DNA from: Tunicatimonas pelagia
GTDB taxonomy: Bacteria > Bacteroidota > Bacteroidia > Cytophagales > Cyclobacteriaceae
Assembly (NCBI RefSeq): GCF_030506325.1
Contig: NZ_CP120683.1
Location: 2,976,001-3,040,000, forward strand
Reading direction: 5' to 3'
Length of the DNA stretch: 64,000 nucleotides
Each line of letters begins with the position of its first letter. The stretch's first letter is position 1. The notes beneath the pieces are model-generated. The model saw only the letters and a list, made by a program, of their open reading frames with translations, did not search any database and was not told the DNA's origin. A program made the translations under genes and the position numbers. Positions 11,593 to 13,111 of this stretch are shown here, in pieces.

Positions 11593-11604
11593 AACTTATA
11601 AGTT
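11593..11604. promoter_or_regulatory. Perfect palindrome, candidate TA operator
   Basis: AACTTATAAGTT is a perfect 12-bp palindrome 7 nt before the ATG of the three-gene toxin-antitoxin-chaperone operon. HTH antitoxins commonly bind such sites to repress their own operon, so this is the natural candidate operator. Binding is inferred. Confidence 0.45.
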
Positions 11605-11610
11605 GATTTT

Positions 11611-12180
11611 ATGGTTATAAATGGTATCTTTGCTATTGTCAATGGGAGCTTACTGTCTGTCCGGTTTGAGGGAAATGAAAGAGATGAGTTTGCTAGACTA
11701 TTTGAGCAATGGCAAGATATCGAGTACCTCGAAAACTTTTTTGAAAGTAACAAAGATGATTTGCAAAATGGATTTTTCGGAAATATTAGCATTGAAGATG
11801 CAGTATTTACTACTACTGAAGAAGCCGATGAACTGGAAAACCACATTCAGGAAGTGGCCAAAAAAGGACAGGAAGATGATTATTCTACACTCTACGATCT
11901 GATATTTCATCCTTTACATGCCAACGATGTGTCAACGTCGCACATAGAAAGCAAAGCATACGGCTTAACCTCTAAATCTTGGTTACGAGTGTATGCTATT
12001 CAGATCGCTACTAATTTATATGTTGTTTCTGGCGGTGCCATCAAGCTTACCAAAGCTATGCAAGATCGTCCACATACTATAGAAGAACTTAAGAAACTTA
12101 GAGCTACTGCATCCTATCTTAAAGAAATAGGATTAGAAGGTAGCGGAGACTACGGTTACATAGATATACAAACATCATGA
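11611..12180 (+). CDS. Putative HigB/Gp49-like toxin of a TAC operon
   Basis: The 189-residue protein has an acidic N-terminal part (1-110) that I do not recognise. Its C-terminal part resembles the RelE/HigB/Gp49 fold: SWLRVYAIQIATNLYVV, GGAIKLTKAM, then a helix EELKKLRATASYLKE. This corresponds to the core strands and C-terminal helix of HigB-type ribosome-dependent mRNA interferases, but the family call rests on pattern only. Typical HigB proteins are about 90-120 residues, so the N-terminal extension is unusual. Its stop overlaps the start of the HTH gene by 4 nt (ATGA), so the two are translationally coupled. The order toxin-antitoxin-chaperone matches the HigB-HigA-SecB-like systems known from Mycobacterium tuberculosis. 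Confidence 0.6.
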   Translation: MVINGIFAIVNGSLLSVRFEGNERDEFARLFEQWQDIEYLENFFESNKDDLQNGFFGNISIEDAVFTTTEEADELENHIQEVAKKGQEDDYSTLYDLIFHPLHANDVSTSHIESKAYGLTSKSWLRVYAIQIATNLYVVSGGAIKLTKAMQDRPHTIEELKKLRATASYLKEIGLEGSGDYGYIDIQTS

Positions 12181-12662
12181 TTACACGACAAGACGCACTT
12201 AACAAACTTAACGGGATTATTTTAGATGGGCGGCAATCCGCGACTCCTAGCCAGTGGCACGAGGATGTAAAGCGACGCGCTGAAGAAAAGCCCTGGAAAA
12301 AACGATCTCAAGCAGTAGCCTTAGCCGTTCTACGAACCCTCCGCGCCAAGAAAATGAGTCAAAAAGAACTAGCTGAACAGTTAGGCGTATCTGCTCAACT
12401 AGTTAATAAATGGGTAAAGGGTAAAGAGAACTTTACTTTTGAAACAGTTTCAAAGTTAGAGGAAGCCTTAGATATTCAGTTAATGCAAGTTACTGGTCTT
12501 AAAAAGCAAACAACTAAGTTGAAAGAGTACATTATGGTGGAAAAGGTTGAGAAGGCTAAAAAGTCGCATAAACCTACTCAGACGGCTTCAACAGAAACCA
12601 AAGTGATTCCAATGAGCAGAGAACTTAGTTATATTCCTGACGAGCAATATGCCTACTCATGA
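12177..12662 (+). CDS. XRE-family HTH antitoxin with C-terminal extension
   Basis: The 161-residue protein has an N-terminal helical segment (1-50) and a clear XRE/Cro-type HTH at about 51-103 (MSQKELAEQLGVSAQLVNKWVKG). After the HTH comes a 58-residue tail, first Lys-rich and then ending in Tyr-rich SYIPDEQYAYS. In chaperone-controlled HigA antitoxins a C-terminal chaperone-addiction (ChAD) sequence makes the antitoxin depend on a SecB-like chaperone. This tail is placed correctly to be one (inference). The gene overlaps its neighbours by 4 nt on both sides. It probably represses the operon through the palindrome at 11593-11604. Confidence 0.75.
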   Translation: MITRQDALNKLNGIILDGRQSATPSQWHEDVKRRAEEKPWKKRSQAVALAVLRTLRAKKMSQKELAEQLGVSAQLVNKWVKGKENFTFETVSKLEEALDIQLMQVTGLKKQTTKLKEYIMVEKVEKAKKSHKPTQTASTETKVIPMSRELSYIPDEQYAYS

Positions 12663-13111
12663 AAGAAGAAGAAGCTGGGAAAATAGGTTTCCTTCTTAGC
12701 AACATTAGTACTTTAGAATTTGCTACAATCGATAGTGCCTATCAGGAAGGTAGTCCAGAAGATTTACAGCTAGGCTTCGGCTTTGGGATACTAGAAGAAG
12801 AGAGGTGGATAGTCTGTGATGCCAACGTTGAATTTCATATTAATAATCGCCCCTTCATCATCATAAAGGTACGGTGCGAATTTGAAATCGATCCGAATGC
12901 TTGGGAAAGGTTCGTTGATTACAAAAAAAATACAATAACATTTCCGGATGGGCTCCTCCGACATCTGGCGGTTCTTACTACGGGTACTACCCGCGGTATA
13001 CTACATGCCAAAACGGAAAACACAAAATTCAATCAAATCATACTACCCACTCTTAACATTGCTGATATTGTCAGCGAACCCATAACTTTTGATATAGACG
13101 CTAAGAAGTAA
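12659..13111 (+). CDS. SecB-like chaperone of a TAC operon
   Basis: The 150-residue protein is mostly beta-rich: paired strands such as WIVCDANVEFHINN and PFIIIKVRCEFEID. A helix and loop follow, GLLRHLAVLTTGTTRGILHAK, and then a strand ending ILPTLNIADIV. The strands-then-TTRGI-helix-then-LPxxN order fits the SecB fold, in which the C-terminal part reads TTRAGF..LPPINF in canonical SecB. No other SecB gene is visible in the window. As third gene of an overlapping operon after an HTH antitoxin, it probably protects the antitoxin from aggregation and degradation. The alternative is a stand-alone SecB-like protein of unknown client. A+T content is high, as for the whole operon. Confidence 0.6.
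   Translation: MKEEEAGKIGFLLSNISTLEFATIDSAYQEGSPEDLQLGFGFGILEEERWIVCDANVEFHINNRPFIIIKVRCEFEIDPNAWERFVDYKKNTITFPDGLLRHLAVLTTGTTRGILHAKTENTKFNQIILPTLNIADIVSEPITFDIDAKK

Follow-up and report, generated by a model that had tools for sequence, protein, structure and literature searches.

A probable toxin-antitoxin-chaperone operon with a SecB-like third gene in Tunicatimonas pelagia, and antitoxin ends that match tmRNA tags in some of its relatives

Introduction

SecB-dependent toxin-antitoxin-chaperone (TAC) modules are represented by HigBAC (Rv1955-Rv1957; Bordes 2016, PMC5105189), and the same paper sets out the concept of a chaperone-addiction region for the tails of TAC antitoxins and states that such tails are not significantly similar from one TAC to another. 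In HigA1 of the Mycobacterium tuberculosis TAC a ClpX degron ending Val-Ala lies within the chaperone-addiction region (PMC8165232, excerpt, citing Texier 2021). In CmdTAC (PD-T4-9; PMC11618068 and PMC9519451, excerpts) the antitoxin CmdA carries a terminal LAA, said to be comparable to the ends of the antitoxins of other TACs, and without its chaperone it is broken down in a ClpP-dependent way. The trigger of HigBAC in E. coli C496 is the major tail protein of phage lambda (PMC11980606, excerpt, citing Mets 2024), and in ParD an SsrA-like motif is located nearer the N-terminus (PMC6191456, excerpt).

An operon in a 64-kb stretch of DNA from Tunicatimonas pelagia (the whole stretch is called the window below) is, on its sequence, best read as a TAC system that fits the PADLOC candidate PDC-M64. 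It is similar to HigBAC in the order of toxin, HTH antitoxin with a C-terminal extension and SecB-like chaperone and in its apparently HigB-type toxin, but the window toxin is longer and outside Pfam Gp49, the chaperone is under the Pfam SecB threshold and the tail is unrelated in sequence. The TAC layout is shared with CmdTAC, whereas CmdT is an ADP-ribosyltransferase and the CmdTAC antitoxin consists of two N-terminal helices and a long unstructured C-terminus, with no such HTH. All three window proteins match the models of PDC-M64, a candidate defence system of PADLOC-DB 2.0.0 whose name, absent from the literature searched, is a candidate label only. TAC systems and ClpX-type antitoxin ends were already known; the new point concerns relatives of the operon, in which some antitoxins end with a full copy of the tmRNA (ssrA) tag of their own genome, also where this tag varies from lineage to lineage, and for such copies no report was found in the literature searched, which mostly excludes subscription papers.

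Results

Layout of the operon and distribution of the family

Reading of the open reading frames in the window gave three genes on the + strand, spanning positions 11611-13111 and preceded by a 12-bp palindrome:

11593-11604, no strand assigned: putative operator palindrome AACTTATAAGTT, present within 3 mismatches in 102/114 loci
11611-12180, + strand: toxin, 189 aa, PDC-M64B-type, the C-terminal half a predicted distant relative of Gp49/HigB
12177-12662, + strand: antitoxin, 161 aa, with a Cro/C1-type HTH (Pfam HTH_3 1.5e-12; PDC-M64C 5.2e-15)
12339-12482, + strand: HTH core of the antitoxin, residues 55-102 (Pfam HTH_3 match)
12483-12659, + strand: antitoxin tail, 59 aa, a probable chaperone-addiction region, ending SYIPDEQYAYS
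12659-13111, + strand: SecB-like chaperone, 150 aa, subtype A (PDC-M64C 1e-8; family-to-SecB profile match)

The genes overlap by ATGA at 12177-12180 (toxin/antitoxin) and 12659-12662 (antitoxin/chaperone), and these coordinates confirm the three genes with 4-nt overlaps and the perfect palindrome described in the initial annotation. An overlap of exactly 4 nt is no rule in the family and was found between toxin and antitoxin in 9/68 loci and between antitoxin and chaperone in 15/68.

For comparison, 157 toxin loci were reduced to 130 by merging identical antitoxins and then to 114 usable loci, defined by a minimum length of 90 aa for the antitoxin and 150 aa for the toxin, together with a detected chaperone or, failing that, 500 nt or more of downstream sequence. 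All 114, after de-duplication, encode the same toxin and antitoxin, and in 68 the gene adjoining the antitoxin was scored as SecB-like; the proposed co-occurrence of the three genes was thereby borne out. Relatives of the toxin were encoded in 16/195 related genomes (the own genome included), 34/395 genomes of the phylum and 48/390 genomes of the order. In a collection of named genomes 479 stretches encode a toxin relative, and the best 80 of these 479, which were kept, read as Bacteroidota, Chlorobiota or Ignavibacteria-type organisms. Among viral contigs, 4 of 28 pattern matches gave a locus; no chaperone was seen at the three of these with a readable antitoxin, one of which has only 489 nt downstream.

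When compared with the PADLOC PDC-M64 models, which have no stated cut-offs, the toxin gave an E value of 1.5e-4, the antitoxin 5.2e-15 and the third protein 1e-8. The match of the window toxin spans residues 123-170 only, and PDC-M64B was matched by 75 of the 77 toxins in the family alignment described below. Inspection of the neighbouring genes by eye did not establish a defence-island setting. The reading as a TAC operon, proposed in the initial annotation, is supported by the gene co-occurrence together with the profile match to SecB and the indirect profile link of the toxin to Gp49/HigB.

The third protein and SecB

No meaningful family was found for either the window toxin or the third protein in Pfam, NCBIfam or PHROGs. 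The third protein had no Pfam match and was below the gathering score of SecB (PF02556), and SecB was absent from the 11 Pfam families matched by any of the 42 members in the alignment of the main chaperone subtype; a sequence-profile search of the PDB with the chaperone family gave zero matches. The profile of this subtype was compared with that of a SecB set consisting of E. coli SecB and homologues, and here the match was 86% (E 5e-6, 128 columns) with unrelated controls at 0.52% or lower. By this family-to-SecB comparison the third protein is related to SecB, as had been suggested from its strand and helix order.

A second chaperone subtype, found in 7/70 loci of the same toxin family, matched the SecB set at 89%, and the scanned members were also below the Pfam SecB cut-off; the two subtypes matched each other at 46% only. 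In distant relatives with the same layout the third gene exceeds the Pfam SecB cut-off (E 1.6e-9 and 9.7e-7). SecB of the Pfam type is rare, being found in 2/59 related genomes (1 over the cut-off) and in 4/198 genomes of the phylum, and three of these four (G268, G276 and G396) have it inside such operons. The seven loci with the second subtype (L009, L011, L012, L015, L272, L274 and L276) have matching antitoxin tails that end with AMAG or ALAG, and chaperone and tail were apparently swapped as a unit.

The toxin family

The toxin had been described as unusually long. Across 112 loci the length of the toxin has a median of 185 aa and a range of 161-223 aa, so that 189 aa is ordinary for the family and the idea of an enlarged toxin was rejected. 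Toxins were aligned in 77 rows, comprising the window toxin and 76 of the 84 loci L017-L100 (L001-L016 were unused; toxins shorter than 170 or longer than 230 aa and five near-duplicates were excluded), and the residues L40, F99, R126, Y128, G141, G142, I144, K145, L146 and E159 were invariant.

The initial annotation had also called the toxin HigB/Gp49-like, and this was supported through an intermediate family and gained little from direct comparison. No Pfam family matched more than 2 of the 77 toxins, the window toxin was below the gathering score of Gp49 (PF05973), and neither Gp49 nor any other RelE/HigB family was among the best 25 of the 36 Pfam families found for the 77 toxins. The best match in a sequence-profile search of the PDB had an E value of 0.38 and nothing was credible. 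Compared directly with Gp49, the toxin profile gave a weak match of 16% (E 0.0016) in the C-terminal part. The 159-aa, PDC-M64-type toxins of the distant TACs in G268 and G276 were the source of a bridge family, and in profile comparisons the toxin family matched the bridge family at 97.7% (E 2.2e-12) and the bridge family matched Gp49 at 92.3% (E 5.5e-7); the combined toxin and bridge profile matched Gp49 at 74%, and unrelated control profiles reached at most 1.54%. Because the bridge family joins the two profiles, the toxin is called here a distant Gp49/HigB relative, placed by sequence outside PF05973 and with an added N-terminal part. Elsewhere in the same genome (C1:5352810-5353055) there is a separate toxin gene of the Pfam Gp49 family.

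The antitoxin tail and its association with the chaperone

The second gene was confirmed as an HTH antitoxin with a C-terminal tail (HTH_3 1.5e-12, tail 59 aa). Tails of at least 30 residues were found in 67/68 loci with a chaperone and in 16/46 loci without (Fisher p 9e-15), and the number of residues past the HTH core had a median of 58 and 19.5, respectively. One locus, L197, was scored as lacking a chaperone although its next gene is a Pfam SecB, which the chaperone profile missed; after moving it to the chaperone group the numbers are 68/69 and 15/45. Nine loci of Chlorobiota type (L046, L053, L068, L080, L082, L177, L178, L179 and L187) have tails of 35-65 residues, often Lys-rich, and no SecB-like gene was detected beside their antitoxins.

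A toxin tree was made from 112 of the 114 loci (L197 and L028 excluded). The best tree requires 17 or more switches of chaperone state, and counting starred branches alone the minimum is 6, with the reservation that this is a quick tree carrying a warning about the meeting of the long branches of L196 and L277. When independent pairs were drawn from the tree, the tail went with the chaperone in a mean of 5.6 out of 6 pairs (p by sign test: median 0.031, range 0.031-0.219). Judged from sequence, a chaperone-addiction region would be expected to behave in this way (concept: PMC5105189, excerpt).

Tyrosine makes up 5.1% of the tails of TAC antitoxins versus 0.9% of the rest of the protein, and 2.4% of the tails of antitoxins without a chaperone. 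The Tyr-rich tail noted in the window is therefore a trait of the family and not special to this copy. Antitoxins ending Ala-Ala were found in 21/68 loci with a chaperone and in 0/44 without; given that such ends are frequent and not universal, a ClpX-type end was not treated as defining a TAC. The window antitoxin itself ends Tyr-Ser, with no ClpX-type hydrophobic end.

A conserved palindrome upstream of the toxin gene

A spacer of 6 nt separates the palindrome AACTTATAAGTT from the first ATG of the toxin gene. Since there are 15 perfect 12-bp palindromes in the 64-kb window, this occurrence is by itself weak evidence. Among the 114 loci, a palindrome with at most 3 mismatches was found upstream of the toxin in 102, as compared with 27.0 expected from base-shuffled upstream sequence, and with at most 2 mismatches in 81, as compared with 3.4 expected, and it was present in loci with a chaperone as well as in loci without. 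Chance was rejected as an explanation given this recurrence in diverged relatives. Out of the 81 palindromes with at most 2 mismatches, 48 end 5-8 nt before the assigned start, 21 overlap the start, 10 are farther upstream and 2 are nearer, and for the 102 with at most 3 mismatches the corresponding numbers are 60, 24, 16 and 2. In the 21 overlapping cases with at most 2 mismatches the start codons were probably assigned too far upstream. Its conservation suggests that the palindrome is an operator, most simply the probable site at which the antitoxin represses its own operon.

Copies of the tmRNA tag in related loci

Charged tmRNA adds an alanine ahead of the encoded tag. Own tags of the genomes were obtained from Rfam RF00023 followed by ARAGORN or direct reading (a usable tmRNA match was absent for L031 and L065), and the ends of the antitoxins were compared with them in 72 loci, comprising 62 TAC loci (including L012 and L015, whose toxin ORF is broken or short) and 10 hand-picked two-gene loci (including L028, with a fused antitoxin). 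The tag-copy result concerns relatives in the family and other TACs and not the window copy: the window antitoxin end PDEQYAYS has 0/10 identities with the tag of its own genome, GESNYAMAA, and was rejected as a tag copy.

Exact copies of the own tag were found at the antitoxin end in 3 of the 62 TAC loci, and in one further TAC, of HEPN type, from the blind scan below. In L066 (Emticicia) the antitoxin ends AGNTSYAMAA and the tag is GNTSYAMAA, in L051 the end is AGEENSYAMAA and the tag GEENSYAMAA, and in L067 (Fulvivirga) both are GESNYAMAA; the tails of L066 and L051 also carry the first alanine that tmRNA adds. A near copy was found in L079 (end AGNERYAVAA, tag GNNRYAMAA). For each of these four tails the own tag beats each of 35 other tags, and the best tree places the four loci in separate groups, not all of which have strong support. 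In genomes with the unusual tag DNNYSYRLAA the tails end DSDYNYRNAA, DSDYNYREAA, DYRYRLTG and IYRLAG, the first two having this tag tied with two other tags as best match; a counter-case with a single match is L184 (..KMMLVG). The mean identity with the own tag was 2.76/10 for the antitoxins of the 62 TAC loci versus 0.40 for the chaperone ends and 0.50 for the toxin ends of the same loci, and it was 0.9/10 for the 10 two-gene antitoxins.

A blind scan for tag-like ends

The pattern Gly-[Glu/Asp/Asn/Lys]-x-x-Tyr-Ala-Met-Ala-Ala-stop was searched in 390 genomes of the order and matched in 256, with exactly one match in 254 of them. Among 30 of the single matches that were examined, 28 were tmRNA according to ARAGORN and the other 2 were inside Rfam tmRNA matches. 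One of the two remaining genomes (G752) has two matches, one being tmRNA by ARAGORN and the second repeating the sequence of this tmRNA at a contig end. The other (G193) has three, one being tmRNA and two being the ends of antitoxin genes in two other TACs. The first of these TACs (L320:713-1924) has a HEPN toxin (Pfam 2.4e-7), a Pfam SecB (1.4e-12) and an antitoxin ending AGERTYAMAA, an exact copy of the own tag GERTYAMAA. The second (L325:686-1918), a CmdTAC relative, has a CmdT-type toxin (PD-T4-9_A 3.3e-17), SecB (1.3e-10) and an antitoxin ending GNYDYAMAA, a near-copy of the tag. We know of no TAC with a HEPN toxin in the literature. The shorter pattern Tyr-Ala-Met-Ala-Ala-stop was found in two places each in G218, G211 and G219, namely in the tmRNA and in a TAC antitoxin.

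Discussion

The explanation of the operon as a tripartite TAC, with a toxin, a tail-dependent antitoxin and a SecB-like guard, is in our judgement very likely as a whole, and it draws on gene order, operator conservation, the profile links to SecB and Gp49, the co-occurrence of tail and chaperone and the tag copies of relatives. The first gene would encode the toxin, most likely an mRNA endonuclease of the Gp49/HigB type with an extra N-terminal half, the mRNA cleavage being suggested by the family. The HTH antitoxin would bind and neutralise this toxin and repress the operon at the palindrome, and its 59-residue tail would make it dependent on binding by the neighbouring dedicated SecB-like chaperone. 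If the chaperone were lacking, the tail would expose the antitoxin to aggregation or proteolysis (by ClpXP, by analogy) and the toxin would be freed. The trigger might be an event such as phage infection, and the PADLOC candidate label and the analogy with CmdTAC and HigBAC make such phage-responsiveness possible. The degron step is the least supported for the window operon because its tail ends Tyr-Ser and shares no identities with the own tag. In some relatives the end of the tail is a full copy of the host tmRNA tag, which would make it a ready-made ClpXP degron guarded by the chaperone.

The same genes could instead form a plain two-gene toxin-antitoxin system accompanied by a hitch-hiking SecB-like gene, with an antitoxin tail that serves, for example, in multimerisation or operator binding. 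Two-gene relatives are common (46/114 loci as scored without a detected chaperone), so that toxin and antitoxin can work alone, and the 16 chaperone-less loci that keep a long tail include several of the Chlorobiota type, along with L197, which is a SecB operon. We regard this as very improbable, however, given that tail and chaperone change jointly across the toxin tree and that the tails are enriched in tyrosine with Ala-Ala ends confined to chaperone loci. More weight, though still on the unlikely side, is given to the view that the toxin of the tripartite system differs in fold and target from RNases of the Gp49/HigB type; this would agree with the direct profile score of only 16%, with the missing of a consistent Pfam family for the 77 toxins and with the N-terminal approximately 90 residues, for which a known relative was not found, but it is opposed by the bridge family, which is linked to both sides far above the level of the controls.

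The tag-like ends in relatives might also be generic ClpX-type ends, such as Tyr-Ala-Met-Ala-Ala, that are alike through the preference of ClpX and are not copies. Ends of this type (Val-Ala, LAA) are known on TAC antitoxins (PMC8165232 and PMC11618068, excerpts), 43 of the 62 TAC tails share at most 3/10 residues with the own tag and are not copies, and when 36 tags are compared, 28 tails reach 4 or more identities with one of them, the top score, alone or shared, belonging to the own tag in only 8 of the 28. Against this, the matches extend into tag positions that vary between genomes (GEENSYAMAA, GNTSYAMAA and GESNYAMAA exactly, GNERYAVAA against GNNRYAMAA), the tails DSDYNYRNAA and DSDYNYREAA occur where the tag is DNNYSYRLAA, albeit in a tie with two other tags, and when tags were shuffled the observed sum was reached in 0/20000 shuffles for the 62 loci and in 1/50000 for the 28, both uncorrected for relatedness, related tails and tags being non-independent. 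Generic ends are judged improbable as the explanation. That DNA of the tmRNA gene was captured into the antitoxin gene is suggested by exact peptide identity across 9-10 residues, but synonymous codons differ from those of the tmRNA at 6/9 positions in L066, 6/10 in L051, 6/9 in L067 and 3/9 in L320, with the serine codon TCT compared against AGC or AGT in L051 and L067. The likeness is therefore at the level of the peptide and not of copied DNA, and capture is considered extremely unlikely.

Returning to peptide-level copies, we consider about as likely as not the wider proposal that in Bacteroidota and kin chaperone-addicted antitoxins can carry a gene-encoded copy of the tmRNA tag of their host. 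Such copies would have evolved more than once, each fitting the local tag, and would occur in TACs of the Gp49-like and HEPN kinds, with a near-copy in one of the CmdT type. The SecB-like chaperone would then guard an ssrA degron and the switch would read the state of ClpXP and trans-translation. Loss of the chaperone would send the antitoxin into the ssrA route. Cleavage of mRNA would produce a flood of ssrA-tagged proteins, which would draw on ClpXP in competition with newly made antitoxin and so spare it, a built-in brake.

The tag copies in relatives suggest how such switches become armed. If functional, they would define what the chaperone shields and connect TAC activation to ribosome rescue. 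They would also be a sequence signature by which new TACs can be recognised, as with the HEPN-type and the CmdT-type TAC to which the blind scan led. The family also includes natural pairs that differ in the presence of chaperone and tail, in which the gain or loss of addiction could be studied. One further arrangement was observed at L028:5568-6614, where the antitoxin HTH is fused to about 250 more residues that include a hydrophobic stretch.
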